Shown in pieces: positions 1 to 61,050 of a stretch of 64,000 nucleotides of DNA (the stretch's first letter is position 1; each line of letters starts with the position of its first letter). The notes below the pieces were generated by a model that worked only from the letters and a program-made list of their open reading frames with translations, did no database searches and was not told the DNA's origin. Source of the stretch: Faecalibacterium sp. I4-3-84. Lineage in GTDB: Bacteria; Bacillota; Clostridia; Oscillospirales; Ruminococcaceae. The translations under genes were made by a program, and so were the position numbers. The stretch covers positions 558,001-622,000 of the forward strand of contig NZ_CP094466.1 of the NCBI RefSeq assembly GCF_023347255.1, read 5' to 3'.

Positions 1-492
1 GACGAACTCACCGCTCTTCTGCTTGACTTCCAAACTGCTTCGGATTTTCATGGAGATGTCCTTGCAGTAAGAATCGTTAATCAGGTTTTTGAACGGGATA
101 ACAAAGGAGTCGGACTGCGGATCACCGGTCAGACTGTCATACGCATCATTGATTGCGATGAAGCGTATGCCGAGCTGCGGGAATATCTTCTCAATGTAAC
201 GTCCGCCGTCGATGTAGTTTCTTGAGAATCGGCTGAGATCCTTGACCACAATGCAGTCAAGCGCACCCTTGCGGATTGCCTCTTCCAGCTTTTTGAACTG
301 AGGACGATTGAAGGAAACGCCGCTGTAACCGTCATCCACAAACGGCTCACAGACAAGCTCCAAATCCTCATGTCTTGCGATATAGTCCTCGCAGATGGCT
401 CTCTGGCTGGCGATGGAGTTGCTTTCAACTTTGTCTCCATCCTCACGGGACAGGCGGCAGTAGATCGCCGTGCGGTAAACCTTGTCTGGCAT
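1..492 (-). CDS. Large serine recombinase, N-terminal part (runs off window)
   Basis: The visible 164 residues are the catalytic resolvase domain of a large serine recombinase. The nucleophile motif YCRLS places the catalytic Ser at residue 15. SNSIASQ, DGYSG and KDLSRFSRNY follow in the usual order, so the domain looks intact. The ATG at 492 has a GGAGG motif 7-8 bases upstream. The C-terminal DNA-binding part lies left of the window. It is the last visible gene of the leftward operon holding the DUF6870, sigma-like and ImmA genes, a normal place for an ICE integrase. It is most likely the outer ICE's own recombinase. Confidence 0.93.
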   Translation of the reverse strand, partial: MPDKVYRTAIYCRLSREDGDKVESNSIASQRAICEDYIARHEDLELVCEPFVDDGYSGVSFNRPQFKKLEEAIRKGALDCIVVKDLSRFSRNYIDGGRYIEKIFPQLGIRFIAINDAYDSLTGDPQSDSFVIPFKNLINDSYCKDISMKIRSSLEVKQKSGEFV

Positions 493-706
493 AAAAATAA
501 CCTCCGTTTTTCTGTTTGGTGTGGTACATCAAATCAGAAAGACGAAGGCTTGCTTCAACTCTTATGAAGAGGAACACGAAAACGCCACATGACCATCAGG
601 GCAAGCGGCTTAATCCGTATTCTTCTTTTTTTGACCGATTTCATTATACCACAGGCTCAATCGCTTGTCCATAGAACCGGGTGAAAAGATTCAGACTGTT
701 CATAAA

Positions 707-13599: not shown

Positions 13600-13620
13600 A
13601 CAGGTCAGGCAGTGACCTGT
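13600..13620 (-). terminator. Hairpin at the recombinase stop
   Basis: ACAGGTCA and TGACCTGT form an 8-bp inverted repeat across the recombinase stop codon. A second palindrome, GTCCCGGCGGGAC (13589-13601), follows. The T-run is weak, so this may equally be a recombinase-binding structure near the element end. Confidence 0.45.
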
Positions 13621-15275
13621 TCCACCTCCGGGATGGGTTTGAGATTAAAATGAATTTCGATAGAAATGTGTCTTGTTTTATCTTCGTCAATGCGCTCATG
13701 CACGACGATTTCTTTGATTAAGCGGTTGAGGGTGGCTGCGTCCAGTTCTGTAATGTTGGCGTATTCCTGAATGGCTTCCACCCATTGTTTTGCGTCATTG
13801 GCAAGCTGGACTTCATCGGACAGCCGCTTTCTGCCCTCGGACACTTTTGTTTTAAGTTCCGTCTGCTCGGTCTGTGTCTTTTCCAGCATGGTGTTGAAGT
13901 TCTGCTCACTGATACGCCCTGCAATCATATCTTCATAAAGCCGCATTACCATTTTGTCCAGAACCTCAATCCGTTCCTCGTCCCTTGTAAGGGAGCGTTC
14001 CATTGCTTCCCGCTGTTCCCGCTGCTCGGCTTCACAGGTATTGGTCAGGCGGTCAGCAATCGCTTTCCCGTCCATCAGGGCAGCTCTGGCACATTCCCGG
14101 ATTTTCCGCAGCACATGACTGTAAAGGGTGTCATAATCAATCCGGTGCTGGGTGCAGTGGTTCTTTCCAAAGGCATTGTAGGTCTTGCAGGAGTAAATCT
14201 GCTGGGGATGTTTTGCGTTTGTGTAGCGTACCGTCAGAGACTTCCCACACTCGCCGCATTTTATCAGTCCGGCAAACAGGCTGATTTCATTGGTCTGCCC
14301 CGGACGCTGGCGGGATTTCAGCTTGTTCTGCACAATGTCAAAGCTCATGCGGTCAATCAGCGGTTCATGCTGTCCTTCCACTACAATCCAGTTCTCCGGC
14401 TTCTTTTCCCCAATCGTGCCGATTTTGAAACGGTAGTCCTTTTTCTGGGAAGCAATCGCCCCAGTGTAAACGGGATTCATCAAAAGGTCTTTGATAACGG
14501 AAAAGTCCCACATATACCGCCCGTTTTCCGGGTCTTTCTTTTCCCATTTGGTGCGGGTATTGCGAAGCCCCCGTTCCCGGTTCCACCATGTGGGGCAGGG
14601 GATTTTTTCTTCCTCCAGCCGTCTGCGGATATAGTTCGGACCATGACCGTTTAGGGCATATCCGAAAATCAGCCGCACAATCGGGGCGGTTTCCTCGTCA
14701 ATGAGCAGATGGTTTTTGTCCTCCGGGTCTTTCCGATACCCAAACGGGGCAAGACACCCGGTAAACTGTCCTTTCTGCGCTTTCAGAAGATAAGAGGAAT
14801 GGACTTTCTTGGAAATATCCTTGCTGTACATCTCGTTCAGGATATTCTTGAACGGGGCGATGTCGTTGTTATCCCGCAGGGTGTCGATACCGTCATTCAT
14901 GGCGATATAGCGGACACCGTTTCTTGGGAAAAAGTCCTCAATCAAATGCCCTGTTTGCAAATAGTTACGCCCCAGTCGGCTGAGGTCTTTCGTGATGACA
15001 AGGTTGATTTGCCTGCGCTCAATGGCTCTCAACATTCTCTGTAAATCAGGACGCTCCATATTAAGACCTGTGAAGCCATCGTCCTGATAGACTGCCACAA
15101 CCTCCCATCCCTGCTTTTCGCAGTATTTTTCCAGCATATCACGCTGGTTTGCGATACTGGCACTTTCGCCTTGCAGGTCATCGTCCTTTGACAGCCTGCA
15201 ATAGACCGCCGCACGATAGCCCCCGGCAAGTGCTGAACCGATTGTTCTGTATTCCATTTCGTTCATCATAGCCAT
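13605..15275 (-). CDS. Large serine recombinase of IME-A
   Basis: This 556-aa integrase of TnpX type has an intact catalytic domain: YCRLS (nucleophile about residue 28), DDGFTG, KDLSRLGRNY. The recombinase domain follows (LIFGYALNGHGPNYIRRRL), then the zinc ribbon CGECGKSL with a later Cys pair, a coiled coil near 430-500 and a DUF4368-like tail (IKEIVVHERIDEDKTRHISI). Two-metal-free serine catalysis with a 2-bp crossover is expected. It lies about 90 bases from the left junction. Its ATG abuts the stop of the 65-aa gene (TAAATG), so translation is likely coupled. Confidence 0.95.
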   Translation of the reverse strand: MAMMNEMEYRTIGSALAGGYRAAVYCRLSKDDDLQGESASIANQRDMLEKYCEKQGWEVVAVYQDDGFTGLNMERPDLQRMLRAIERRQINLVITKDLSRLGRNYLQTGHLIEDFFPRNGVRYIAMNDGIDTLRDNNDIAPFKNILNEMYSKDISKKVHSSYLLKAQKGQFTGCLAPFGYRKDPEDKNHLLIDEETAPIVRLIFGYALNGHGPNYIRRRLEEEKIPCPTWWNRERGLRNTRTKWEKKDPENGRYMWDFSVIKDLLMNPVYTGAIASQKKDYRFKIGTIGEKKPENWIVVEGQHEPLIDRMSFDIVQNKLKSRQRPGQTNEISLFAGLIKCGECGKSLTVRYTNAKHPQQIYSCKTYNAFGKNHCTQHRIDYDTLYSHVLRKIRECARAALMDGKAIADRLTNTCEAEQREQREAMERSLTRDEERIEVLDKMVMRLYEDMIAGRISEQNFNTMLEKTQTEQTELKTKVSEGRKRLSDEVQLANDAKQWVEAIQEYANITELDAATLNRLIKEIVVHERIDEDKTRHISIEIHFNLKPIPEVEQVTA

Positions 15276-17732: not shown

Positions 17733-19307
17733 TTAAAGTTCCATATCCTGTTGTTTGTGTTTCGTCTGCGCCGGGGCGTTTTTCTGTGCTTTCTTCTCGT
17801 CAGCCTTATCCTGCAAGACTTCTTTGAGGGGCTGCTTCTTGGGCGGCTCTTTGCTTTCCTCTGTGCCGGGTGTGGCTTTCCGTACCCAGTAGCGGATGTC
17901 CCGCAGCTTCTTCAAATCTTCCTGCACCTCGGTCAACGGTACTTTCAAGTCTGCGATTTCGCCCACAAGCTTCGCCTGTTCCTGCAAAAGCTCCTTTTTC
18001 GTGCTGTCCTTATCATCCGGGTGCTTGGCAAGGTAGGCACTGGCTTTCTCAAACCGGGCAACCTCCGGGTGTTCCAGCTTGAATTTTTCCTTAGTTTTCT
18101 TGAAAAATATCTTCTGGTATTTCTCATAAACGGGCTTACATTCCTTACAGTCCGTCCGGGCGGCAAGGATAGCGTCAATCACGTTGCTGCGGGTTTCCTT
18201 TGGCTTCATCTGCTTTCGGTAGTCGGCGGCAGATTTCCCGGACGTTTCTATAAAGTTTTCCAAATCCTCCACGGTGGAAAGTCCCTTTCTCTGAAGATAG
18301 GACAGGGCTTCGCTGACTGCCTTTAAGTCTTTGGAAGTTCCACGGTTTTGTCCCGCCCGTGTCCAGTCGCTCCGTTCTGCCTTTCGTACCTCCATGTACT
18401 TCATCAACAGATTGGGAAGAAATACCGCTTCCTCCGCAGCTTTTTCCGCAAGCAGTTCTTTTCGTTTTTCACTAAGCTCGATAATCCAGCCTTTGAGATT
18501 TTTAATAAGCTGCCGGATAGACTTCATCAGGCTGTTGGCGGCTTTGATTTCCCGGTTCAGATTTCCGATGTTGGTCTGAATCCCTCGCTTTTCCATCTGC
18601 CGGACAGCAGCACCCTCATGGACGGTAGGGATAATATCAAGCCCCTGTCTTTCATAAGAACGGAGATCCACCCGCTCCGGGCGGTTGTTGGCTTCCAGAT
18701 AGCGGTTCTGGATGATCTCCCATTCATGCCGCCAGATTTCACAATACTTGCGGTCGTTCCAGTCAACCGTATCTTCCTTGTGACTTTTCCATCTGCCGGA
18801 CGGAAGTTTTATCCGTTCCCCGTTCTCGTCAAGGTCATAAACCTTGCGGCTCTTGGGAAGCCATTTCCCATGTTCATCCATTGCCCGCATAGTCAGCATG
18901 ACATGAGCGTGAGGGTTTCCGTCCCCTTTGTCATGGATGGCAAAATCCACGCACATTCCTTTGGAAACAAACTGCTGATTGCAGAAATCCCGGACAAGGG
19001 CGGCGTACTGGTCGGGCGGTATCTCTCTGGGAATGGAAAACACCCACCGCCTTGCAAGCTGGGAGTTCCATTGCTTCTCAACAGCTTCGGCGGCGTTCCA
19101 TAAGGTATTGCGGTCTGCATACTCTGGCGGGGCATTTGCCGGGAGCAGGATTTCATTATGGACGATACCACGCTTTTCTGGGTAGTGCTTCACTTGCTGG
19201 TCGTATTCACAGAACAGCTTTTCGCCGCTTTGGTAAGCAGCGGCGGCAACAGCAGACTGGCGGTTGCTACGCTGGACGATGGAGATTTGATTGTGTGGAC
19301 AGGGCAT
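17733..19307 (-). CDS. MOBQ relaxase of IME-A (MobA/MobL)
   Basis: This 524-aa relaxase should nick the oriT and pilot the DNA strand. The N-terminal MobA/MobL domain has the usual GIVHNEILLPANAPPEYADR segment and the metal-binding histidines H125, H133 and H135 (AIHDKGDGNPHAHVML). A coiled-coil and Lys-rich C-terminal half follows. AGGAGG lies 8 bases before the ATG at 19307. Its oriT is at 20571-20618, with a MerR gene between them. Confidence 0.93.
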   Translation of the reverse strand: MPCPHNQISIVQRSNRQSAVAAAAYQSGEKLFCEYDQQVKHYPEKRGIVHNEILLPANAPPEYADRNTLWNAAEAVEKQWNSQLARRWVFSIPREIPPDQYAALVRDFCNQQFVSKGMCVDFAIHDKGDGNPHAHVMLTMRAMDEHGKWLPKSRKVYDLDENGERIKLPSGRWKSHKEDTVDWNDRKYCEIWRHEWEIIQNRYLEANNRPERVDLRSYERQGLDIIPTVHEGAAVRQMEKRGIQTNIGNLNREIKAANSLMKSIRQLIKNLKGWIIELSEKRKELLAEKAAEEAVFLPNLLMKYMEVRKAERSDWTRAGQNRGTSKDLKAVSEALSYLQRKGLSTVEDLENFIETSGKSAADYRKQMKPKETRSNVIDAILAARTDCKECKPVYEKYQKIFFKKTKEKFKLEHPEVARFEKASAYLAKHPDDKDSTKKELLQEQAKLVGEIADLKVPLTEVQEDLKKLRDIRYWVRKATPGTEESKEPPKKQPLKEVLQDKADEKKAQKNAPAQTKHKQQDMEL

Positions 19308-40415: not shown

Positions 40416-42296
40416 TTAGACTGCTGCGCTGGCTGCTATGCTGCCTTTGCGCGGTTCTTCTTTTGGTAGCTGCCCGATAGTAGAAAAAACACCTTTTTTC
40501 ATATCCTCAGCCCGGATCAGGGCTTTCTTAGCGTCCATTTCCGCTTTTTTCTTCGCCTTGATTTTGTCCTCATACCGTTTCTGTGCGCCGCTGGCTTTCC
40601 GCTTCAAATAGTTCTGATGGAGCCTGTCCTTGCGTTCTTCTCTTTTCCGCAATTCTTCCTGTTCCTCTGGGGTTAAAGGAACCGGCTGTAAGGATGGTGG
40701 AATATAGCGTCCTAAAAAATTAAAGTAGATTTCAATTTCCTGCGTGGTATCCTGACTGCCTTTTCGGGAGCGTTCATGGACAAGGATTTTCTCTACAAAC
40801 TCGTTGAGCATGGTATTTGTCAGCGTGTCAAAATTCTCGTACTTATCAATCAGGGCTATAAATTTCTCTGCTGATTTCTGGCTCTGCTCATAGCCGGTAA
40901 CAGCCTTTTCCAACTCCGCAATTTCAATCTCAAGTGCGTCCTGCTCTTTGGCATACTGTGCATCAAGCGCCTTATATCGTGTATCCGGCAGCTTGCCGAG
41001 GGCGTTATCCTCATAGATTTTGCAAATCAGTTTTTCCAGTTCTCCGGCTCTCTTTTGGGCAGTAGCCAGATGCCTGCGCTTTTTCGATATATCGGCACTC
41101 TGTTGAGCAACCTGCGTCTCCTGAACAGTGTGAATAAATTCCGTCCGGTCATTTCTCGAATATTCAGCGATAGCCCGGAGTGTGTCGGAAACCAATGTCA
41201 GAACAGCACTCTCATTGATACGGTGTTGTGTAAGGCATAGTGTCCCACACGGAACTTTGGTATAATTGGAACAGGTATATTGAGAAATCCGCTTGCCATT
41301 GTTGGTGCGGTGGACATACATCTTGCCGCCACAATCGGCACAATAGAGTAAGCCTGTGAGGGGAGCTGCTTCGCCCCAGCCGTTTGGATAACGCCGTACA
41401 TTGCTGCGGATTTTCTGCACCAGATCAAAGGTCTGCTGGTCGATAATGGCTTCATGGGTATTCTCAAAGATCGTCCACTCGTCCTCAGAAACATAGTGGC
41501 TTTTCTTGTCCTTAAAGTGCTTGCGGGTCTTGAAATTGATGGTGTGCCCCAAATACTCTCGTTTTTTCAAAATGTTCACGATGGTAGATGATCCCCATCC
41601 ATAGGGGTCTTTGACCGGCTTTGAACGGTTCACACCCTCGTTGAAGCGGGCAAGGTGTACGACGGGAATTTCAATCCGATCTGCGGATAATTTGCAGGCA
41701 ATCTGATAAGGCCCATATCCCTCCAGCGTGAGGGAGAAGATACGGCGTACCACTTCGGCGGCTTCCTCATCTACCAGCCAATGCTCCCGTTTTTCGTCCC
41801 ATAAGTAGCCGTAAATCACAGTGCCGGTCAGGTGCTTGCCGCTCATACCTTTTGCCTTAAACACAGAACGGATTTTCCTGCTGGTATCACGGGCGTAAAA
41901 TTCATTCATGATGTTGCGGAATGGGGTAAAATCGTCATCGCCTTTCAGACTGTCCACACCGTCGTTGATGGCGATCAGACGAACACCGCGTTGCCGCAAA
42001 ACCTCCATGACCTGACCGACCTTCAGATAGTCGCGCCCCAACCGGCTCATGTCCTTGATGACGATTGCCTCTACACGCCCTGCCTCCACTTCCTCCATCA
42101 TCGCCAAAAATCCGGGGCGGTCAAAACGGGTGCCTGAGATACCATCATCTGTAAAGTGCGTAGGGTTTGGCAGCCCATTCCGGCGGGCAAAATCCTCTAA
42201 CATCTGTTTTTGGTTGGATATGGAATTGCTCTCGCCCTGTAACTCGTCGTCCCGGCTCAGGCGCTCGTACAGTGGGGTAATTTTTTCATTTCTCAT
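40416..42296 (-). CDS. Large serine recombinase of IME-B (TnpX-like)
   Basis: This 626-aa integrase has YERLSRDDE (nucleophile Ser14), DDGISG, KDMSRLGRDY, a recombinase domain, a zinc ribbon (YCADCGGKM with later Cys residues), a coiled coil near 410-490, a DUF4368-like segment (VEKILVHERSR) and a long basic tail rich in Lys. It should carry out integration and excision of IME-B. AGGAGG precedes the ATG at 42296. It lies about 90 bases from the right junction. Confidence 0.95.
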   Translation of the reverse strand: MRNEKITPLYERLSRDDELQGESNSISNQKQMLEDFARRNGLPNPTHFTDDGISGTRFDRPGFLAMMEEVEAGRVEAIVIKDMSRLGRDYLKVGQVMEVLRQRGVRLIAINDGVDSLKGDDDFTPFRNIMNEFYARDTSRKIRSVFKAKGMSGKHLTGTVIYGYLWDEKREHWLVDEEAAEVVRRIFSLTLEGYGPYQIACKLSADRIEIPVVHLARFNEGVNRSKPVKDPYGWGSSTIVNILKKREYLGHTINFKTRKHFKDKKSHYVSEDEWTIFENTHEAIIDQQTFDLVQKIRSNVRRYPNGWGEAAPLTGLLYCADCGGKMYVHRTNNGKRISQYTCSNYTKVPCGTLCLTQHRINESAVLTLVSDTLRAIAEYSRNDRTEFIHTVQETQVAQQSADISKKRRHLATAQKRAGELEKLICKIYEDNALGKLPDTRYKALDAQYAKEQDALEIEIAELEKAVTGYEQSQKSAEKFIALIDKYENFDTLTNTMLNEFVEKILVHERSRKGSQDTTQEIEIYFNFLGRYIPPSLQPVPLTPEEQEELRKREERKDRLHQNYLKRKASGAQKRYEDKIKAKKKAEMDAKKALIRAEDMKKGVFSTIGQLPKEEPRKGSIAASAAV

Positions 42297-46345: not shown

Positions 46346-46400
46346 AAAGAAGGGACTAAGCCAGAATGCCTTGATTTTCAAGGTCTTTCTGATTTAGTCC
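46346..46400 (-). terminator. Hairpin at the right end of the outer ICE
   Basis: GGACTAA (46353-46359) and TTAGTCC (46394-46400) with inner CAGAA/TTCTG and CCTTGA/TCAAGG pairs form a long hairpin. On the minus strand it is followed by CTTCTTTTTTT. It lies about 15 bases inside the ICE boundary and would stop host-element transcription entering the ICE. Confidence 0.75.
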
Positions 46401-46670
46401 TATTATCGCACAATAATCTTTTACGATAATGGTATCAATCTCGCCACTGCGCACACCATCCATCATCTTCTGAAAGCCCGGTCTGTCGAAATTGCTGCCT
46501 GTGTAACCATCATCCACAAAATCCATCACAGGCAGATTTTGCAGATTCTCCTTGCAGGAAATATACCGTTGGATCAGTTCTTTCTGGTTTTCGATGCTGT
46601 TGCTCTTGTCTTTTCCGTCCTTACCCAAATCACCGTCTGCCCTTGAAATGCGCTGATACGCTGCAATCAT
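46356..46670 (-). pseudogene. Fourth serine recombinase gene, truncated by the outer ICE
   Basis: The frame begins like an intact large serine recombinase: AAYQRISRADGD, DDGYTGSNFDRPGF, then GEIDTIIVKD. Right after IVKD (about 46416) the expected LSRxGRNY is replaced by ICE sequence, with a stop 19 codons on. Its ATG overlaps the stop of the preceding recombinase gene (ATGA). The missing 3' part should lie at the far, left end of the ICE, outside the window. Confidence 0.88.
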
Positions 46671-48355
46671 TTTCCCGCACTCTCCTTTCCAAGGTCTGCA
46701 AACACATCTTGAAACCCAAATACAATGCGAACCCGTTTATCTGCACCTACTTCGATTCTCTGCACAAGGGATTTTACCAGCTGAGCATCAAATACAAAGT
46801 CATCCAGATGCTCTTCCAGGTTGGATGTCATATTCAGATATTCTCTAATCTGTTGTTCTACTTCCTTCTTTTTGGCTTCTGCTCTCTGCAGTGCTGCCCG
46901 CAGGCTGTCATACTGTTTGGAATAATCTTCCCGAATCAGCTGGTAATCTTCGGAATCCACCACGCCTGCCACATAATCCGCATAAAGCTGTTCTCTTTTC
47001 TTTGCCATCTGACCAACTTTATCCGTCAGGCTCATAATCTCACTTTTTGCACGGTAGACAGGATTCTGCATATCTTCGATTTTTCTCAGTTCTTCCAGAA
47101 CCTTACGCTTATCACTGAGCCGAACGATGAAAAAATGCAGCTGATCCATTACCAGAGCTTTTAGCAGTTTTTCCGTAATCAAGTGTCCGATGCACTTATC
47201 ATCCGCCTGCCTTGCTCTGCAAATATAGTAGCAAACCTTTTTACTTTCTTCTGCTCCATGTGGAAGCCTATCAAAATCCATCGGTCTGCCGCAATCTGCA
47301 CAGAACACCATTCCGGCAAGATCATTCTGATACTCCGTGCGAATCTGTTCTGATTCTGCTCTTATTTCTTTGTATACTTTCTGATTCTTCGCCAGAATAT
47401 CCTGCACCTTTTCAAAATCATCCCTTGCAATGATGGCTGGATGTGTATTTCTTGTCACATGCCACTGTTCTTTTGACAAGTTACGTTTGTCCTGCCCTGC
47501 AAAAAACTTCCGTGTACTTTTATTGTTGACGGTATCTCCCACATAGGTTTGATTTGCCAACATATGCCGTACCGAGGTTTCGCCCCATTTTTTATAAGTA
47601 ACGACATCCTTTCCCTCAACAATTTTCCGATGCCACTCCCGTGGGGTTGGAACCTGCAGCAAGGTCAACCGTCTGGCGATTTCAAAAATCGCTACACCCA
47701 TCAGCACCCACTGGAATATCAACTGTACATAAAAGGCTGTTTCCGGGTCAATCTCATTTCGTTTTGTCACGGGATTCCGAATATATCCAAACGGAGCATC
47801 ACTTCCGACTGCATAGCCTGCTTCTTTTTTACGCTGCAGGGAAGTCCACACCTTTTTGGAAATGTCTTTCGCATACATGGTGTTGACCATATTCCGAATC
47901 GGGAGAGCCAGGCTTTCCATATCCTCTTTGCGCGTACTATCAAAATGATCGGTGACAGCAATCAAGCGAACACCTAGAAATGGAAATACGGTTTCAATAT
48001 AGTATCCCGCTTCCAGATAGTTACGGCCAAAACGCGATAGGTCTTTTACAACGATACACTTGATTTTTTTCTGCCGCACATCGTTCATCAAACGGGTAAA
48101 GGCCGGGCGCTTGAAATTTGTTCCTGTAAATCCATTGTCAAAATACGTATCTACATAATTTAATTCACTGCTACGGTTAATAAAATCCTGCACTAGTGCA
48201 ATCTGTGTTTCCATGCTTTCGTTATCTTCATCATCTTCCACCGAAAGCCGTCCATAGATTGCAGTTGGTATCTTTTCTTCATCCAATTCTGGGAACTGCA
48301 CTGAAACCGTTGCCTGTTCCGGTTGGAGCAAATTCTTTCTACTTTTTCGTGCCAT
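46667..48355 (-). CDS. Large serine recombinase (third of operon, intact)
   Basis: This 562-aa recombinase has YGRLS (nucleophile about residue 37), DNGFTG, KDLSRFGRNYLE, a recombinase domain, a zinc ribbon (FCADCGRPMDFD with later Cys) and a coiled coil at 430-510. All catalytic motifs are present. It overlaps the degenerate recombinase by 17 bases and the fourth, broken one by 4 bases. The four are read as one operon. Confidence 0.94.
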   Translation of the reverse strand: MARKSRKNLLQPEQATVSVQFPELDEEKIPTAIYGRLSVEDDEDNESMETQIALVQDFINRSSELNYVDTYFDNGFTGTNFKRPAFTRLMNDVRQKKIKCIVVKDLSRFGRNYLEAGYYIETVFPFLGVRLIAVTDHFDSTRKEDMESLALPIRNMVNTMYAKDISKKVWTSLQRKKEAGYAVGSDAPFGYIRNPVTKRNEIDPETAFYVQLIFQWVLMGVAIFEIARRLTLLQVPTPREWHRKIVEGKDVVTYKKWGETSVRHMLANQTYVGDTVNNKSTRKFFAGQDKRNLSKEQWHVTRNTHPAIIARDDFEKVQDILAKNQKVYKEIRAESEQIRTEYQNDLAGMVFCADCGRPMDFDRLPHGAEESKKVCYYICRARQADDKCIGHLITEKLLKALVMDQLHFFIVRLSDKRKVLEELRKIEDMQNPVYRAKSEIMSLTDKVGQMAKKREQLYADYVAGVVDSEDYQLIREDYSKQYDSLRAALQRAEAKKKEVEQQIREYLNMTSNLEEHLDDFVFDAQLVKSLVQRIEVGADKRVRIVFGFQDVFADLGKESAGK

Positions 48356-49871
48356 CGTCTGTACCCTCCAATTCTATCCGTTCAAGCATCTGCTTCCATT
48401 CCTCTGTTTTCATCGTTAGACCGATTTCTGCCTGTCTATCGCCTAAAAATGTAACCACGACCTGTTCAATGTACTTTTTCACAAAATTACGATCCAGTGC
48501 CTCTGGGGTCTTATATTGTTCCATCTGCTGAATCCACGGATTTCGCAAACTCAATGCCCGTTCCCATACCGTCGTATTTTCCATGATTGCCGTAAGCTGT
48601 TCATTCAACTCTCGATGAGCTTCTTCATAATCCAGCACTTCAGCACGATACTGTTCTTCCGTGATTTCATCGGCCATATAGCTTTCATATAACGGTACAC
48701 GGCGAAACTGTTCCATATTAAGTTCAGCCAGAATGGTCTTCATCTGCATCGAACTATCAGCTCTTACTTCTTCAATTGCTTTTCTGCCAGCTCCCTGCTG
48801 AATTGCGGAGTACATCTTTTCTTCTTTCCGATGTTCTCTCTCCATAGCATCTATCACCTTTTTATATACAGATGCAGCCGGAGCTTTCAATTCCTTTCCA
48901 TTCTCCTTGTGAGCACGGCAGTAGCTGCAATAGAATAGTTCTTCTCCCGTTTTCTTATCCTTATGCCAATAAAGTGGACGTCCACAGGTACAAATGATGC
49001 GCTTTGCAAGAGGATTCGGTTTTTTATATTTTTTCCGAGTTGATATTTTGTTTTCACTCTGCTGCATATTGCAAGGAAGCGCATAAAACCGTTCTTTTGT
49101 CATGTACGGCTCATGGCAGTTCTCCGCAATAATCTGACGGCTTCCGTTTGCCGTTGCACCCGTGTATGTTGGATTTCTGAACAATCCCCTCAGATTATCC
49201 GATGTCCACAGATCAGATTCTCCCTCATATGGTTTTCCCTGAATTCTTTTTTTGTGCCTCATCGGTGGTTCGACATTCTGTTCATTCAACCATTTTGCAA
49301 TATCACGCATCTTCTGTCCCGATGCATATCTGGAAAAAGCTTCGCTCAGATACGGAGCAACCTCTTCATCCTTTACCATGTTGCTTTCACCGTTCCTGCG
49401 GATATAACCATACGGAACGGAATTGGTCAGCCGGAATCCTGCGCCCTGCTTCTTCCTCCATGCAAACATGATTTCTGCGTGCATCTCGCAGCGTTTCTCC
49501 TCAAAATAGTCCTCAACCTCTTTTCGACTGGCAGTTCTGGTATCCAGTCCTTCTTCCAGAACGATCAGATCCACGCCTGTCTCATAGAGAGTTTCCTTGA
49601 TTGACTGACGCGCCGCCGGGAAGCCAGGCCCACAGTAATACATAGATGCTACAATGATGCAGTCAAATTTTCGCCCCACTCCATCATCAATCATTTTGTC
49701 AAATGCCGCACTTGCGTTTTCTGCACCCTTACGGTCAGAATACTTTTTCTGTAAATCGAACTCTTTATGTTCAGCCAGGTATTCTGCAATACGCTGATTC
49801 TGGTCGGCAATCGTCAGTTCACCTGTATGGTTTTTCCAAGGCATCGTCCGAGTATAGCTTACACATTTCAT
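48339..49871 (-). CDS. Degenerate serine recombinase, probably catalytically dead
   Basis: This 510-aa protein aligns with large serine recombinases in its C-terminal parts: LRGLFRNPTYTGATANG, a Cys-based ribbon (CTCGRPLYWHKD, CSYC) and a coiled coil. The catalytic domain is altered. The nucleophile motif reads YTRTMPW, with Thr9 where Ser is expected. DGYTG is replaced by SDRKG, and the DLSRxGRN arginine motif by ASMYYCGPGF. It is full length and in frame, so it is not simply decayed. Flanking intact paralogues suggest a non-catalytic partner or a recombination directionality role. It starts at 49871 in an ATGA overlap. Confidence 0.85.
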   Translation of the reverse strand: MKCVSYTRTMPWKNHTGELTIADQNQRIAEYLAEHKEFDLQKKYSDRKGAENASAAFDKMIDDGVGRKFDCIIVASMYYCGPGFPAARQSIKETLYETGVDLIVLEEGLDTRTASRKEVEDYFEEKRCEMHAEIMFAWRKKQGAGFRLTNSVPYGYIRRNGESNMVKDEEVAPYLSEAFSRYASGQKMRDIAKWLNEQNVEPPMRHKKRIQGKPYEGESDLWTSDNLRGLFRNPTYTGATANGSRQIIAENCHEPYMTKERFYALPCNMQQSENKISTRKKYKKPNPLAKRIICTCGRPLYWHKDKKTGEELFYCSYCRAHKENGKELKAPAASVYKKVIDAMEREHRKEEKMYSAIQQGAGRKAIEEVRADSSMQMKTILAELNMEQFRRVPLYESYMADEITEEQYRAEVLDYEEAHRELNEQLTAIMENTTVWERALSLRNPWIQQMEQYKTPEALDRNFVKKYIEQVVVTFLGDRQAEIGLTMKTEEWKQMLERIELEGTDDGTKK

Positions 49872-51529
49872 ACTGTACTCCCCTCCGTTTCTGTTGTCGG
49901 AATGCTGTTGCAATATTCCAGTACATTGCGGATTTCCTGGTCGAAGCGATATTGGATGTGAATGTGCTCTTTATCATAGACTGTAATGCTTTCCACCAGT
50001 TCTACCAGAACACGGCGATTCAAACTCGTTAAGTTTTGATAGGATTTAAAATCTTCGATCCACGGCAAATGTTCCACATCCAGATTGTTCAGGCTATCCA
50101 GCTGACGGTTCATTTCCGCTTTTGCCTTACGGATATTTTCGACTTTTTCATTAAAGGAACGGCTGAACTCTTTATACTCATCCTTACTGACAATGCCGTT
50201 GCTCATATCTTCATAAAGCTGACGGCGCAGGGTCTGGTATTTCTGTTCTTCCTGTTCCAGCATTTTCATGTGCTCTTCTACCGATTTTAACCTGCGTTGA
50301 TTTTTGGGAATCTCGTTGATTTCATCCAGCCGCTGTTCCAATCCACTGATCTGCTGAATTTTTCCCTGCAATGCAGCCAGCACCACTTCTGCTAATTTAC
50401 TTTCACTGATAAGGTGTGAAGAACAGCCCAGGCCGTTATGATTTGTGATGCAGTGCAGATAAACATACTTCTTTCCATTTTTTGATACAGTGCGCCGCAC
50501 CATATTCTGTCCGCAGCCCCCGCACCGAACCATACCTGAAAAGAGATTGACTGTCTGCTGTCCTTTCGATGCACAGGTGTCCAGCTTCAAAACTTCCTGT
50601 ACGGTGTCAAACAATTTCTGTGGAATGATGGCCTCGTGCATATTGGGAACTTTAATCCAGCCGGATTCTTCTACGTCACGGATTTTCTTAATCTTGTAAT
50701 TGATTTTCTGCCGTTTACCCTGCACCATCGTTCCGGTGTAAACTTCATTTTTCAAAATCCGAAGCACCTGAATCGCCTGCCACTTTGCATGAGTTCCGGC
50801 CTTGAAGCCGCTGTGATAATTCAATCCGCACAGACGTTTGTACTCACTGGGAGCCAGAACCCCCTCGCTGTTCAGCTGTTCCGCAATAACCTTTGCGCTC
50901 ATGCCTTCCAATTTTCTGCGGTAGATAGAACGAACAATTTCTGCTGCGTACTCATCCACCACCAACCGGCTTTTGTTCCGTTCATCTTTGCAGTAACCGT
51001 ACATTGCATATCCGCCGATGAACTCCCCTTTGCGCCGCTTAATGTCCAACTGGCTCCGAACCTTAATGGAAATGTCCCTGCAGTAGGAATCGTTCAGCAG
51101 ATTCTTAAAGGGAACAACGATGCTGTCTGAATCACTGCTCTCGGTGTTCGCATTATCGTAATTATCATTGATGGCGATGAACCGAATTCCCATCATAGGA
51201 AAAATCTGTTCCAGATACTTTCCCATCTCAATGTAGTTACGGCCAAGTCGAGACAAGTCCTTGACTATGATGCAGTTGATCTTACCGGATTTGATGTCCT
51301 CCATCATCTGCGTAAAGCCTGGTCGCTCAAAATTGGTTCCCGTGTAACCATCATCTGCATATTCTCCTACCAAATGCAGTTCTGGTCGTTCTGCAACGAA
51401 ATCCCGAATCAGTTCTCTCTGGTTTCCGATGCTGTTGCTTTCAGCCTTATCTCCGTCCTCGATGGACAATCTCAGATAGGCCGCTGCCCGTATGTCTTTA
51501 TTCTTTTCCTTGTAAAAAAACAAAGCCAT
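49868..51529 (-). CDS. Large serine recombinase (first of operon, intact)
   Basis: This 553-aa recombinase has AAYLRLSIEDGD (nucleophile Ser near residue 21), DDGYTGTNFERPGF, KDLSRLGRNYIE, a zinc ribbon (CGGCGQNMV with later Cys) and a coiled coil at 390-470. It is the first gene of the recombinase operon, with AGGAGG before the ATG at 51529 and a promoter at 51616-51644. The stop overlaps the next start as ATGA. Confidence 0.95.
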   Translation of the reverse strand: MALFFYKEKNKDIRAAAYLRLSIEDGDKAESNSIGNQRELIRDFVAERPELHLVGEYADDGYTGTNFERPGFTQMMEDIKSGKINCIIVKDLSRLGRNYIEMGKYLEQIFPMMGIRFIAINDNYDNANTESSDSDSIVVPFKNLLNDSYCRDISIKVRSQLDIKRRKGEFIGGYAMYGYCKDERNKSRLVVDEYAAEIVRSIYRRKLEGMSAKVIAEQLNSEGVLAPSEYKRLCGLNYHSGFKAGTHAKWQAIQVLRILKNEVYTGTMVQGKRQKINYKIKKIRDVEESGWIKVPNMHEAIIPQKLFDTVQEVLKLDTCASKGQQTVNLFSGMVRCGGCGQNMVRRTVSKNGKKYVYLHCITNHNGLGCSSHLISESKLAEVVLAALQGKIQQISGLEQRLDEINEIPKNQRRLKSVEEHMKMLEQEEQKYQTLRRQLYEDMSNGIVSKDEYKEFSRSFNEKVENIRKAKAEMNRQLDSLNNLDVEHLPWIEDFKSYQNLTSLNRRVLVELVESITVYDKEHIHIQYRFDQEIRNVLEYCNSIPTTETEGSTV

Positions 51530-51960: not shown

Positions 51961-52228
51961 GAAGCATCTTTTTTGATGGGCCTGCGGAATACGGCAAAAC
52001 GCTGGGGCTTTTCTCTCTTAGCGCAAGATTCGCCCATAGTAACTCAAAACTCACTTTCGTGATTTTTCGTTCCCGGCAATCTTGATGGGGATTCCGTTCC
52101 CCATTCCCACGGTACGCACAAAATCTTGGATTTTGGCTATCTGGCTCCACATAAATGTGTTCGCAGCCGAACGCCTACGGCTTATCGGGAGTTGCTTCGC
52201 AACTATAAAAACGCAGGAGGATCACACT
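51961..52228. other. Spacer before MobC with hairpins
   Basis: ATGGGGA/TCCCCAT (52085-52104) and AGTTGC/GCAACT (52190-52204) form hairpins. The second sits just before the MobC ribosome binding site. I see no gene here. Both could belong to the transfer origin or control MobC translation. Confidence 0.5.
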
Positions 52229-52621
52229 ATGGCACGACCCAAAAAGGAAGAAAGCATCAGACGCACCAGCAATGTAATGGTTCGTTTCAGCAGCATTGAA
52301 TATGAACTGGTGGCCGGATATGCAAAAGATGCTGGTTATCCCATCTCCACTTTTGTGCGCAAGCAGGCTCTATCTGAAAAAGTGACTGTCAACTACAACA
52401 TCGTTGCCGATATTGGTGAAATTCAGAAGTTGACTGCTCAGGCCGCTGGCATCGGGAATAACCTCAACCAGATTGCCCGCTATTTCCACGGCGGCGGTCT
52501 GGCTTCGCACGGAATGTTGGAAGAACTGAAAAAGTGTATTGCGGAAATCCGTGAACTGCGGCAGGAAATCGTTCAGCTTGGAGGTGCATATCGTGGCAAT
52601 TCTAAAACACATCGCAAGTAA
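52229..52621 (+). CDS. MobC-like relaxosome protein
   Basis: This 130-aa protein has a ribbon-helix-helix-like N-terminus (RRTSNVMVRFSSIEYELVAG), then FVRKQALSEKVTVNYNIVAD and the MobC signature GIGNNLNQIARYFHGGGLAS. MobC proteins bind oriT and help the relaxase. GCAGGAGG precedes the ATG at 52229. It overlaps the relaxase start by 29 bases. Confidence 0.92.
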   Translation: MARPKKEESIRRTSNVMVRFSSIEYELVAGYAKDAGYPISTFVRKQALSEKVTVNYNIVADIGEIQKLTAQAAGIGNNLNQIARYFHGGGLASHGMLEELKKCIAEIRELRQEIVQLGGAYRGNSKTHRK

Positions 52622-54200
52622 AAATGCCAATTACGGGAGTGCCATCGACTATCTGAAATACCAGCACGATGAGTTTCATCTGGTTCCCGTTCTGGATGAA
52701 AACGGGAATATGATGCTCCGGGATGAATTTTACCTTGAAGGATTGAACTGCAATCCTGAAACATTCGACCTTGAGTGCGAACTGTTGAATCAGGAGTATA
52801 ACAAGAACAACACTTACGATGAAATCAAAAGCCACCATTACATCATCAGCCACGATCCGAAAGACAACACTGACCACAACCTGACTGGTGAGTGGGCGCA
52901 GGCCATCGGCATGGAATATGCTAAGGCCAATTTTCCGGGACATCAGGCTTTGGTCTGTACCCACACCGATGGTAAAAATGGCACAGGCAACATTCACACC
53001 CATATCATAATCAACAGCCTGCGCAAATTTGATGTTGACCCGCAGCCATTCACCGAGCGTCCTATCGACTGCAGGGCTGGCTACAAGCACCACCTTACCA
53101 AAAATTATTTGAAGCACCTTCAGAAATCCTTGATGGATATTTGCCGACGGGAGGGACTGCATCAGGTCGATCTGCTCTCCCCTGCCCCTGACAGAATTTC
53201 GCCGCAGGAGTATTACGCCAAACAGCGCGGTCAGCAAAATCTGGACATTGCCAACATGGAGCTTATGATTGAGGGCATCACTCCCATGCACACCACTTTT
53301 GAAACGGGCAAAGAAAAAATTCGCAACGCCATTTCGGACATTGCGAAACGTGTCACATCTTTTGAAGAATTTCAAAGACTGCTGAAAGCAGAATACGGGA
53401 TTTCAGTAAAAGACCATCGTGGACGATTCAGCTATCTTCCTGCTGACCGGCAGAAGTATATCTCTGCCCGTGCGCTGGGTTCCAATTATGACCGCGACAA
53501 ACTTCTCCGAATTTTTGCAGAAAATGCAAGGACTGCAGAGCAGAACAATCCTCATTGGGCAGTAGACGATCCTATGGCTATCCTGTTCATCAAGTCTGAT
53601 CTGCGCCTTGTGGTTGACTTGCAGACCTGTGTAAAAGCCCAGCAGAGCCGCGCTTATGCACAGAAAGTAAAAATTTCCAATCTGCAGCAGATGGCCCGGA
53701 CCGTTGCCTATGTGCAGGAGCATGGATATGATTCTCGTGAGAAGCTTTCCGAAACTGCGGATGCCATCTATACCAAAATGGCAAAAGCGCGCGGCGATGC
53801 AAAGCTCACTGAAAGCAAACTGCGAAAAACAAACGAGCAGATTCATTACCTTGGTCAGTATCTCTCCACAAAATCCATTTACGGAGAATTTCTAAAAGCT
53901 CCGAATAAGAAGATTTTCCGTCAAGCCCACTCGGACGAACTTGCCCAATATGAGGAAGCACTTCAAATTCTGAAGCAGCACTCGCCTGATGGGAAGTTTC
54001 CTACCATGAAAGACCTTCGAGCAGAAAAAGAGCAGCTTACGATTCAGAAGGACGCCCAATACGATACTTACCATTATTTCAAGGATTATCACAAAGAACT
54101 CCAGACCGTGTGTGCCAATGTAGACAGCATCCTCGGCACAGAACAAGAAGTGCAGCAGCACGAACAGCAGCACACGCGAAAATATGAGCCATCCCTCTAA
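52593..54200 (+). CDS. MOBP relaxase
   Basis: This 535-aa relaxase has the relaxase/mobilization nuclease domain: HIASKNANYGSAIDYLKYQH at the start, the HTDGKNGTGNIHTHIII motif with H124, H135 and H137, and an early Tyr as a likely nucleophile (Y14 or Y20). The C-terminal half is helical, rich in Gln and Glu. The GTG at 52593 has GGAGG 8 bases upstream. It nicks its own oriT, probably the site near 51933. Confidence 0.93.
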   Translation: MAILKHIASKNANYGSAIDYLKYQHDEFHLVPVLDENGNMMLRDEFYLEGLNCNPETFDLECELLNQEYNKNNTYDEIKSHHYIISHDPKDNTDHNLTGEWAQAIGMEYAKANFPGHQALVCTHTDGKNGTGNIHTHIIINSLRKFDVDPQPFTERPIDCRAGYKHHLTKNYLKHLQKSLMDICRREGLHQVDLLSPAPDRISPQEYYAKQRGQQNLDIANMELMIEGITPMHTTFETGKEKIRNAISDIAKRVTSFEEFQRLLKAEYGISVKDHRGRFSYLPADRQKYISARALGSNYDRDKLLRIFAENARTAEQNNPHWAVDDPMAILFIKSDLRLVVDLQTCVKAQQSRAYAQKVKISNLQQMARTVAYVQEHGYDSREKLSETADAIYTKMAKARGDAKLTESKLRKTNEQIHYLGQYLSTKSIYGEFLKAPNKKIFRQAHSDELAQYEEALQILKQHSPDGKFPTMKDLRAEKEQLTIQKDAQYDTYHYFKDYHKELQTVCANVDSILGTEQEVQQHEQQHTRKYEPSL

Positions 54201-59300: not shown

Positions 59301-60599
59301 CTCGATTCCCTCTTGACTTGCATAATCACCTGCCGTTCCATCACGGAACAGCGGATAAATTCTCTCACCCAGCCGATGCCATTCCCGTGCGCCCTCTTTC
59401 GTCAGCGGCAGTACATCATCGTGCAGATAGCCATAATCGTGCATTTCCGAAAGGCCAATCATCCCATCCGGGAGATTTTCGATTTTCTCCTGTGCATCAT
59501 ACATCAGGCGGTTGGCTTCTTCTTTGTCATCCTCGGCCAGTGCAGCCGCCAGACCGTTCACCAGTTCTTCCGTTGCTGCCCGATCATCCAGCTTGAAAGC
59601 AAAATTCACGATGAGATTTCGCTGCTCATCATCAAAAATCGTTTTTTCCTGCTCCTTATTGGCAATCAACTTTTCCGCATACTGCATCGCGGTCATGCGC
59701 TCTGCGCTCCTTTCTGCGACTGCCGCTTCCAGTTTTTCCAGAAAGTCGGCTGCGGTCAATCGAATCGTATCCATCGAATCTTTCAGTTCCTTCATCTCCT
59801 TGCCGCTGGCCCAGCTTGCCACATACGGGAAAGAATAGTCGGACGTATCAATTCCAAGTGCCGAGCAGACCGTAAACGCAATACTCTCGGCTTCGGTTTC
59901 TTTCGTGAGCCTGTTTTTTTCTTCGCCGCGCTGCTTCATCGAATCGCTGTTATGCAGCATCGCATGTGCGACTTCGTGGATCATCGTCTTTATGGTCTGG
60001 CTCTCGCCCATGCCGACCTGAATGCAGATTTCTTTGTCGGCATCACTATAATAGCCTTTAGCTTCCCCTTCGATTTCATCAAATCGCATCGGCACAGGCG
60101 ATACCTGCTCGATTGCCGCCGTAAGCAGCGCATAGTCTTTGACGCTAGCCGTCAATTCGTTCACTTCCAGCGACGGAATCGGTTCCCCATCGGTCTGTGA
60201 AACATCAAAAACTGTCGTCAATCGAAACCTCGGAATAACATACTCCACACGTTCCATTTCCGGCTCACCGTTTTCGTTCAGCACAGCCAAACCCGTATCC
60301 TTGTCGATTTTCTCCCGTTCTTCCACTTCCTTGATGGGAGCCGGAGCAATGATCTGGATGCCCTTTTCGCCTTTTTTGACGTAACGGTTAAATTTATTCT
60401 TCCATGCGTTAAACCCTGCCACCAGTGTGGCATCAGGCCGCTGCATCGCAATCAGCAGCGTATTGTTGAAGCTGTAATTGTGGAATTTTGCCATCGTGCG
60501 CAGGTACGTCGTGTACATTTCCGATGTAAAAATATCCTTTACGCCCTGCTCCAGCCGTTCCGTGATTTCTTTCATCTGCTGTTTGCGGTCAACTGCCAT
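56313..60599 (-). CDS. 1428-aa ArdC-like/ImmA-like/YodL fusion protein
   Basis: The N-terminal 130 residues match the ArdC single-strand DNA-binding antirestriction domain (TTYLRTMAKFHNYSFNNTLL, GFNAWKNKFNRYVKKGEKGI). A zinc peptidase-like motif HEVAH follows at 208-212 (MIHEVAHAMLHN). The rest is a chain of mobile-element domains: a YodL-like part near 640-740 (FGIYQITARDPEHDYRFMNL), DUF4316-like parts (FYVVENLQAAPLKIERFGNL; FYVAECLEFTFAGEFHDHLT) and a Lys-rich tail. It probably protects incoming single-stranded DNA. AGGG precedes the ATG at 60599. Partner genes overlap it at both ends. Confidence 0.88.
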   Translation of the reverse strand: MAVDRKQQMKEITERLEQGVKDIFTSEMYTTYLRTMAKFHNYSFNNTLLIAMQRPDATLVAGFNAWKNKFNRYVKKGEKGIQIIAPAPIKEVEEREKIDKDTGLAVLNENGEPEMERVEYVIPRFRLTTVFDVSQTDGEPIPSLEVNELTASVKDYALLTAAIEQVSPVPMRFDEIEGEAKGYYSDADKEICIQVGMGESQTIKTMIHEVAHAMLHNSDSMKQRGEEKNRLTKETEAESIAFTVCSALGIDTSDYSFPYVASWASGKEMKELKDSMDTIRLTAADFLEKLEAAVAERSAERMTAMQYAEKLIANKEQEKTIFDDEQRNLIVNFAFKLDDRAATEELVNGLAAALAEDDKEEANRLMYDAQEKIENLPDGMIGLSEMHDYGYLHDDVLPLTKEGAREWHRLGERIYPLFRDGTAGDYASQEGIEQHDGIFGIKADAWDAILLEQRGDYAEDEYAHPDFPLTVINREQALRLFDEGKQIYLIRISPWPVLVTGREEIERGSDYFQIAKEDLEKDKQKTMENGEKAPVEKLAVDLDDYAFNFDFYHYKDSVEDREQAVEALKEQIQAGDVQTIREWLQAAVEESEGESAEKAAELITRMDAVVKEQKLLSGSEKQFGIYQITARDPEHDYRFMNLDFVKRHGMEVNCADYELVYTAPLTENDTLEAIYERFNIQRPADFTGHSLSVSDVVVLNDGGTVKAYYVDSIGFAELPDFFKERNMDLQKENLLKEKLQEIEIFDKPGLFSNGRLRDEDVPEGLYRYDLRGSDYDPGQPITVEKTVVVNHAASVLMAEELDLGAEGRLELGEEGLNFTGAELTVREFIEEQQQKRKGLIHGDSDHITVEGHIGTWYSVDETEVGGEKFFLLEHEEHGDMAACVAVNEQGKLVAEDLWNGFDEDFQEAVQKYFSEKWNMPKKEDVVSEIIEKAAPVPDNSAQDYSDVPVYYEPFSYAKENDEVDLYRTSYRLNSECKQAIHEAIADNYDGMYLGDGVVDQVVRQYGMERVGYILANTLHHKSYDGRFSHSNKEWAEQVSTPEHNVERMTFRTDWVVDSHPAVLDGFVTMYRDELDAQKKREQEQPFVKQFYVVENLQAAPLKIERFGNLDDAMSQYQALPNHYMKALGVEKNPDPLPGSLDVLQCRNGIDTIVEDYKTVPGWDNPYIQNHVVQPLQGALAVQDVELAYELPDAYFHIQTCDDGFDYTLYNKDFTERDGGVLETDGDKSVQEAMTELLAAFSCDAAEGKVMDAAELREQADTVAEQQAEVLKEKLAAERPAPEETLSFYVAECLEFTFAGEFHDHLTMEEALEVYDKIPSERMNADKCIGFCIEEDGGFVGMYELVVNDKVQRENINSINYFRDDKLVQQAISDMEKLMAARQQSKEQERSNTKKSVLDALRSLKAKKQEQPAQEQDKPKKAKTKGMEL

Positions 60600-61050
60600 G
60601 CAAGCCCTCCTTTTTCTTGACCCATCGTGTTTTCATCTGGCGCGGATACTGGTTGGCCTGTTTCGGTGCTTTTGCGCCGTTCCATTCCAATCCTCCAGCT
60701 CTGCCCTCACAGGTGTACCCGGCAGCTTTCAGGGATGCACCATTTTCCGTATCCAGAATGTAGGTGATCACTTTGTTGTAGCCCATTGCCCGTGCTGCGC
60801 GGTATGCCGCCGCGTACAGGATGCTGCAAGCGTTCGGTGTTCCATCCGTACACAAGCGGTTGACTTCCAGCGTATAGCCATCATCCAGCCGCCGCGCCAC
60901 TGGCCTGCCGCAGATAGCAACGCCCACCAGCGCACCATTATCCGATACGCCGATGGAGAACTTATGCCCCCGCGTCGGTTTATGGTGGCGGTGATGCTGC
61001 TGCACAAATGCGTTTGCCGTTTTCAAATTGATCGGTGTTAATGTCAGCAA
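60589..61050 (-). CDS. XF1762 family GNAT-like protein
   Basis: This 153-aa homologue of the 11463 protein shares QHHRHHKPTRGHKFSIGV, DDGYTLEVNRLCTDGTPNAC and YILDTENGASLKAAGY. The start is TTG at 61050, close behind GGAGGG. The end overlaps the ArdC-like gene by 11 bases. Function unknown. Confidence 0.85.
   Translation of the reverse strand: MLTLTPINLKTANAFVQQHHRHHKPTRGHKFSIGVSDNGALVGVAICGRPVARRLDDGYTLEVNRLCTDGTPNACSILYAAAYRAARAMGYNKVITYILDTENGASLKAAGYTCEGRAGGLEWNGAKAPKQANQYPRQMKTRWVKKKEGLHGS

Follow-up and report, generated by a model that had tools for sequence, protein, structure and literature searches.

A conserved, apparently non-cleaving paralogue in a serine recombinase operon of Faecalibacterium, and an element family that prefers recombinase active-site codons

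Introduction

What use could a mobile element have for a full-length serine recombinase that has lost its strand-cutting residues? The question is raised by a stretch of 64,000 nucleotides from Faecalibacterium sp. I4-3-84 (contig NZ_CP094466.1, positions 558,001 to 622,000), referred to here as the window; coordinates are positions in the window unless a locus (L), or a genome and contig (G, C), is named. Within it lies an operon of large serine recombinase genes, the quartet, designated A, B, C, and D in their order of transcription along the minus strand. The product of B departs from its siblings at the catalytic positions. We propose, with a probability of roughly 0.6, that B serves a hetero-oligomeric serine integrase as an accessory subunit that does not cleave DNA. 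On balance, we also favor regarding the integration module as an operon of four genes, three of which (A, C, and D) encode catalytic large serine recombinases, with B encoding a dedicated paralogue that does not cleave.

Most work on serine integrases treats them as single, self-sufficient proteins, and why some elements carry three or four integrases is unexplained in the portion of the literature consulted. A conserved dead member in a catalytic set offers a direct handle on the division of labour. In addition, B could add a natural control part to the integrases used in genome engineering.

The Quartet and Its Second Gene

Gene A (49868–51529, minus strand, as are all four genes) is an open reading frame (ORF) for a catalytic large serine recombinase of 553 amino acids (aa) that groups with the first genes of serine integrase triplets. 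Gene B (48339–49871) encodes a full-length large serine recombinase paralogue of 510 aa. Gene C (46667–48355) encodes a second catalytic enzyme, of 562 aa, which belongs to a clade of C proteins. Of gene D, the fourth recombinase gene, only an N-terminal remnant of the first ~85 codons is present (46356–46670); its frame opens like that of a recombinase (YQRIS) and stops shortly past IIVKD, and the rest of the gene lies outside the window. Adjacent genes overlap by 4 bases at A/B (49868–49871), 17 bases at B/C (48339–48355), and 4 bases at C/D (46667–46670). This arrangement is not due to chance, because 26 other loci show the same layout as far as their contigs reach.

A preliminary description of this DNA, made from the letters alone, had reported overlapping genes for two full recombinases with Ser and arginine motifs, flanking a full-length protein with YTRT and without DLSRxGRN. 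These features are all present. The Tyr-x-Arg-x-Ser and DLSRxGRN motifs are intact in A (YLRLS, DLSRLGRN) and in C (YGRLS, DLSRFGRN), and in their place B has YTRTMP and IIVASMYYCGPG. That is, Ser is replaced by Met, the next residue is Pro, Asp is replaced by Ser, one Arg by Tyr, and the other by Pro. The same description took B for the dead middle member of a triplet. A dead recombinase does sit inside the operon; it is, however, the second of four genes rather than the middle of three, the last overlap being with D.

In Pfam searches, A and C have Resolvase, Recombinase, and zinc-ribbon domains. B matches PF07508 Recombinase (4.6e-15) and, weakly, PF00239 Resolvase (1.1e-5), with a sub-threshold zinc ribbon. 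Thus, B has the domain order of the large serine recombinase family, a Resolvase-type domain followed by a Recombinase domain. It does not have the set that marks active members, namely a Ser two residues after the first Arg together with the Asp, Arg, and Arg of the second motif.

Loss of Catalytic Positions across B Proteins

B proteins were compared in 27 loci. The nucleophile position (R+2, two residues after the first Arg) is Val in 10, Thr in seven, Ile in six, Leu in three, and Met in one, and Ser in none. The next residue (R+3) is Ser in 19, Pro in seven, including the window's B, and Thr in one. The motif Asp is replaced in every B, by Ser in 26 and by Lys in one. By comparison, proteins of the A, C, and D types have the Ser in 82 of 83 rows and the Asp and the last Arg in 83/83; the sole row without Ser, L062_A, has lost its start at a contig end and has no residue there. 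The two motif arginines are kept in 15/27 and 3/27 B proteins, the last Arg being the one kept in three.

The column that holds the nucleophile depends on the alignment. R+3 falls there in the first profile alignment and in a comparison with the TP901-1 integrase profile, which places the R+3 Ser on the catalytic Ser by a one-residue insertion; R+2 falls there in a separate alignment of B proteins and in a wider alignment. From its residues, the window's B can be predicted with confidence to be catalytically dead, and distant B proteins are probably dead. Complete loss is certain only for branches like that of the window, because R+3 there is Pro. A frameshift or sequencing artefact was rejected as the source of the changes, as loci from different assemblies agree. 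None of the 27 B proteins has normal catalytic motifs, a finding that would have told against a conserved dead subunit had it come out otherwise.

Distribution and Selection

In all 27 loci, B is preceded by A where the contig reaches and is followed by C, and the genes run A-B-C-D up to the limits of each contig. These loci hold 26 distinct B proteins, those of L069 and L149 being identical, and were gathered by their B frame, so that decayed copies of B would be under-sampled. Related loci lie in a Lachnospiraceae genome (L009, B 91% identical) and in Faecalibacterium prausnitzii (L010, 82%). Others are IMG/VR contigs, one phage-collection record, and genomes G013 and G171 (B 26–28% identical). 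There are exceptions to full-length neighbors: C is shortened in L027 and A is split over two frames in L145. The A/B junction, measurable in 25 loci, is an overlap of exactly 4 bases in 19 and of 13 bases in three; gaps of 8 and 24 bases occur in L074 and L061, and the value of 207 for L145 arises because only the larger A piece was used.

The B query alone (P0002) found 3/396 genomes of the family at 1e-30, the window's own included. The A1 profile matched 148/394 genomes of the order at 1e-25 and exceeded 700 bits only in G000, G013, and G171, which supplied rows of that profile, so their high scores are partly by construction. The next best score was 175 bits, and the matched ORF has an ordinary catalytic motif in 27/27 of the loci fetched below the top three, among the A1 matches listed (L033–L059). 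The A3 profile found only the window's own genome among 391 genomes of the class at 1e-60. A scan of genome contigs with B yielded two loci, and the plasmid and phage collections gave one close record, MT837953 (82%), the rest being at most 28% identical.

Selection was gauged by the ratio of nonsynonymous to synonymous substitutions (dN/dS; Nei–Gojobori counts with Jukes–Cantor correction), which is unreliable where dS is near or above 1. For B, the ratio is 0.06–0.20 over three groups of close relatives. Values are 0.08–0.20 for the window against its four relatives, with 0.11–0.15 among L010, L013, and L014; 0.129 for L072–L145; and 0.06–0.12 in the L069 group. Values of 0.12–0.19 for L063, L064, and L066 come with dS above 1, and the L028–L062 comparisons of B and of D have no dS value. 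By domain, B of the window's group has 0.073 in the catalytic, 0.062 in the recombinase, and 0.129 in the C-terminal part. The ratio for A is usually lower (0.02–0.15), and that for C is 0.03–0.13.

The B frame is open over 466–510 aa in 27/27 loci, full length being kept down to 20–28% identity, and some residues are specific to B: Ser76 (26/27), Asn444-Pro445-Trp446 (27/27), and, at the start of a predicted helix, Glu118 (19/19) and Tyr122 (17/19). Neutral decay, the outcome that would have undone the earlier claim of a conserved dead subunit, was rejected on the open frames and on dN/dS values well under 1, which give no sign of it in loci picked by their B frame. We read this pattern as suggesting that B is under selection for a different job rather than decaying. 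To summarize, the absence of the nucleophile Ser (0/27), the full length, and the purifying selection all agree with a conserved dead subunit.

Predicted Structure of B

Among 20 B members scanned with Pfam, the Recombinase domain is found in 20 and the Resolvase domain in 18. The zinc-ribbon cysteines are present in the window's B group, sub-threshold in Pfam, and missing from most other B proteins. A model was made with AlphaFold2 from 20 aligned B proteins (mean predicted local distance difference test score 82.6, predicted template modelling (TM) score 0.43). Because the latter is 0.43, the relative placement of domains is not trusted. In Foldseek searches of the PDB, ranks 1–8 are serine integrase complexes of the SPbeta YokA type and phiC31, matched over the whole length (E 5e-17 to 2e-14), with an overall TM-score near 0.2 because the domain arrangement differs; the TP901-1 catalytic domain is matched at lower rank. 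VIA-align superimposes the N-terminal domain on TP901-1 integrase (Z 15.3, 126 residues, root-mean-square deviation (rmsd) 3.8) and the N-terminal plus recombinase domains on those of phiC31 (Z 14.9, 244 residues, rmsd 14.2). Residues 332–388 and 405–439 are predicted to be long helices of a coiled-coil region. The model thus has B without the strand-cutting residues but with the fold of the catalytic domain, the DNA-binding recombinase domain, and a coiled coil of some length.

B was also compared with named recombinase families. Assignment to XisF, the fdxN-element excision recombinase (NF041201), was rejected, the window's B scoring 47 bits against a cut-off of 375. No Ccr family of NCBIfam (CcrA, CcrB, CcrC) is listed for the window's B at E 0.01, and other members match weakly (best 1.2e-9).

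B as an Addition to a Triplet-Type System

In a tree of 111 proteins, B forms a single clade of 19 rows (Shimodaira–Hasegawa-like approximate likelihood ratio test (SH-aLRT) support 99). A clusters with the first genes, and D with the third genes, of ordinary triplets on viral contigs. C clusters with the second genes of six triplets, and a further seven second genes fall outside that group. The quartet C rows form one clade (100), and the A rows and the D rows each form one except for the relative in L070. Sub-clades recur from one gene's part of the tree to another's, and therefore the four genes travel together. The tree was made by a quick method, has long B branches, and leaves out streptococcal triplet members; synteny and shared residues support the grouping of B independently of it.

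Like a triplet, the quartet has three tandem catalytic integrases that cluster by position (A, C, and D). It departs from the pattern of exactly three genes, all with a catalytic Ser, in having four genes, with B lacking the Ser. Because A, C, and D group with genes of canonical triplets, all catalytic, B is an addition, an extra gene between the first and second genes in one lineage of triplet-type systems. A deep relative of B (547 aa; SH-aLRT 82) with catalytic losses and a zinc-ribbon match above threshold lies near a triplet in L098 (7733–9376).

A Second Kind of Dead Partner

A different protein, consisting of the catalytic domain only, is found behind the third recombinase gene in 12 loci. 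Its frames span 133–182 aa, and it has Ala at the nucleophile position. Six of the 12 are near-identical (L017, 5137–5592; L119, 10277–10732; L020; L110; L116; and L120), and the others are in L080 (11309–11782), L090 (5083–5631), L132 (10402–10950), L133 (5986–6387), L134 (8778–9197), and L138. All five that were checked match Pfam Resolvase. Such a partner accompanies seven of the 24 complete triplets, a count limited to those in which 700 bases or more follow the third gene. An eighth candidate, in L101, was dropped as a fragment of a target gene.

A wider proposal is that one lineage of conjugative elements uses a serine integrase that is an obligate hetero-oligomer and includes a dedicated subunit unable to cleave, and that dead subunits arose at least two times in this class, as the full-length B within the operon and as the catalytic-domain-only Ser-to-Ala protein behind some triplets. 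We hold it tentatively, at somewhat less than even odds; if it is true, control by non-cutting partners would be a general principle among multi-gene serine integrases.

A Proposed Role for B, and Alternatives

In the mechanism that we favor, B would be made together with its siblings through the overlapping genes and would join the recombination complex as an accessory subunit. There it would bind DNA at or beside the attachment sites, contact A, C, or D via its N-terminal domain and coiled coil, and thereby set which sites pair or the direction of the reaction. From the overlapping genes and the retained domains, we infer a shared complex, and with it DNA binding by B and a regulatory or architectural role.

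Each subunit of a serine recombinase cuts its own half-site, and exchange requires all four cuts. A dead subunit in the crossover tetramer would therefore block exchange, which makes it unlikely that B sits at a crossover half-site when exchange is productive. On the same reasoning, an accessory-site or regulatory position is favored over a place in the cutting tetramer. Precedents are the Tn3 and γδ resolvases, in which subunits beside the crossover site help build the synapse without cutting. In those systems, the active protein itself does both jobs, whereas in the quartet the second job would fall to a gene of its own.

Several observations weigh against an accessory subunit. Ordinary triplets do without B. 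In L070 (7929–11304), a locus 95% identical to a B-bearing relative until near the end of A, the gene after A is of the D type, B and C both being missing, so B is dispensable in some such systems. In L102 (5740–6177), only a 145-aa protein without catalytic residues or a Pfam match stands between A and C; it is possibly a decayed B, or a B cut down to its N-terminal domain. The dN of B usually exceeds that of A, with equality for the window and L009 and the reverse for L072–L145 (B 0.022, A 0.033, 328 codons). The R+3 Ser in 19 of 27 B proteins means that some could keep chemistry, and DNA binding may be altered in those B proteins that lack the zinc-ribbon cysteines.

The nearest rival to the accessory-subunit reading is inhibition or directionality control: B would form a dead heterodimer with a catalytic sibling and block excision, or would serve as a recombination directionality factor. 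We consider this unlikely, though well ahead of the readings below. It suits a protein that retains its N-terminal domain and coiled coil with the catalytic residues lost, and the catalytic-domain-only Ser-to-Ala proteins beside other triplets could act only through such contacts. A pure inhibitor, however, has no need of the recombinase DNA-binding domain, kept in 20/20 B proteins scanned.

Much less probable is a role unrelated to recombination, such as autoregulation of the operon through DNA binding. The retained DNA-binding domain and a place inside the operon suit feedback, but a repressor needs neither the catalytic-domain fold nor the coiled coil, and both are conserved. A shade less probable again is a B that still cleaves, with its nucleophile displaced by one residue to R+3. 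The TP901-1 alignment and the 19 proteins with Ser at R+3 speak for it; against it, R+3 is Pro or Thr in the other eight, the Asp is replaced throughout, and the R+3 Ser is combined with both arginines only in L027 and L028. Finally, a decaying pseudogene or frozen duplication remnant, to which the faster divergence of B in most pairs and the short protein of L102 could point, is very improbable given the open frames (in loci picked by them), the low dN/dS, and the invariant B-specific residues.

Comparison with Known Systems

Single large serine integrases, such as phiC31, SPbeta YokA, TP901-1, and Bxb1, share the domain order and predicted fold of B. In each of them, a single catalytic protein works alongside a small directionality factor that is unrelated to it.

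Serine integrase triplets are known from streptococcal integrative and conjugative elements (ICEs) (Ambroset et al. 2016, PMC4701971). In the portions of that paper available to us, the triplets are tandem, same-direction genes for large serine integrases at one end of a conjugative element, as here, and their proteins likewise cluster by position, a likeness drawn through the paper's description. Direct repeats of 2–8 bp are given there for the streptococcal ICEs, and a 4-base identity is seen for the triplet element inserted in D (see below). All 42 integrases counted in those portions have the conserved serine, whereas in the quartet a fourth, dead protein stands between the first two catalytic ones.

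The GInt islands offer a second parallel (Bardaji et al. 2017, PMC5385486). As described in the sections of that paper drawn on, their ginABCD operon has, like the quartet, four genes, for three integrases and one further protein, and all four products are reported to be essential for integration and excision. Unlike here, the integrases are tyrosine recombinases, and the fourth protein is a small helix-loop-helix protein rather than a dead full-length recombinase. Within the extracts of the open-licence PubMed Central literature searched, no dead member of a serine integrase set was found.

Gene D and the Element Inserted in It

The rest of D lies ~51 kb away, at G000:C1:551694–553169, and over 451 aa it shares 92% identity with an intact relative. 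D was therefore rejected as a mere pseudogene, its other half standing beyond an inserted element. Between the halves are ~51 kb of DNA with a TraG-type ATPase, an NlpC/P60 protein, and a separate catalytic triplet, whose first recombinase gene has its start in the window (1–528, minus strand) and which continues to C1:553528. The junctions of D with this conjugative element, at 46417–46420 (minus strand) and at G000:C1 ~553046, share a 4-base identity. They lie at the Lys-Asp codons before LSRFGRD, that is, in the DLSRFGR motif of D, and codons of the D frame after ~46417 belong to the inserted element. Because D is split, the quartet is probably no longer able to act as a set in this genome.

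The same codons are hit elsewhere. A second copy of the element in this genome (L020, ~14050) adjoins a different recombinase through a junction of the same kind, and same-codon junctions occur in further recombinases in fetched loci L104, L116, L119, L120, L127, L130, and L132. Related triplet elements join at DDGxxG codons (L101, 13337–13816; L112, 5982–7424; L080, 12059–13420). Another recombinase frame follows 10 of the 24 complete triplets; L098 showed no junction motif. L110 counts against a target preference: there, the same element end adjoins a stretch resembling DLSCLGR, and nothing behind that stretch matches a recombinase.

The ends were also sought blind to the target, by a search for the element-end pattern in 394 genomes of the order. 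Ten ends were found in eight genomes (L152–L161), and a reversed control gave none. A D[LM]SRxGR-like stretch adjoins 10/10 ends, in degenerate form in L159. In eight of the ten, the sequence runs on into a serine recombinase, each time from profile position 97 (330–446 bits). Of the other two, the L159 end shows a weak recombinase match (83 bits, with stops masked), a degenerate remnant, and the L153 end has the motif with no recombinase behind it. Thus, the preferred targets of this element family are active-site codons in serine recombinase genes, the window's quartet being one victim.

Targeting of other elements' genes is known in kind, since mobilizable elements disrupt the conserved ICE genes traG, maff2, and snf2 (PMC5357655, in the text available). 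A single case of an erm(B) element inside the serine integrase gene of a mobilizable element is also described in an excerpt of PMC7168690. No element family targeting serine recombinase active-site codons was found in the extracts of the open-licence PubMed Central literature searched. With a target preference of this kind, in which one element lands in active-site codons of another's recombinase, competition among mobile elements would become open to test.

The element's second copy has a triplet whose second recombinase gene is interrupted (L020, 8504–11963). The inserted element itself holds more single serine recombinases, at 13605–15275 with 17733–19307 and at 40416–42296, one of them near a MobA/MobL relaxase; these are possibly nested mobilizable elements.

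Surroundings of the Quartet

Beside the recombinases, a NikA/MobC-like protein and a MobA/VirD2-type relaxase are encoded on the plus strand (52082–54200), and both are presumably part of the quartet element. Also on the side of A are a helicase and a large protein that has an N-terminal ArdC domain. Beyond D, the relatives have in common a 103-aa protein and, in L009, L010, and L017, a protein that we take to be glyoxalase-like. A conserved inverted-repeat stretch follows (L010, 12444–12548; L013, 11244–11348; L009, 11635–11759; L017, 2188–2276; L028, 13259–13336; L062, 6395–6470), past which the sequences diverge. In L009, matching changes occur in both arms of the repeat. This stretch, near the end of the quartet element, is a candidate terminator or attachment site. 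Elsewhere in the window, at 60589–61050, a protein matches the phage Mom DNA-modification family just above threshold.

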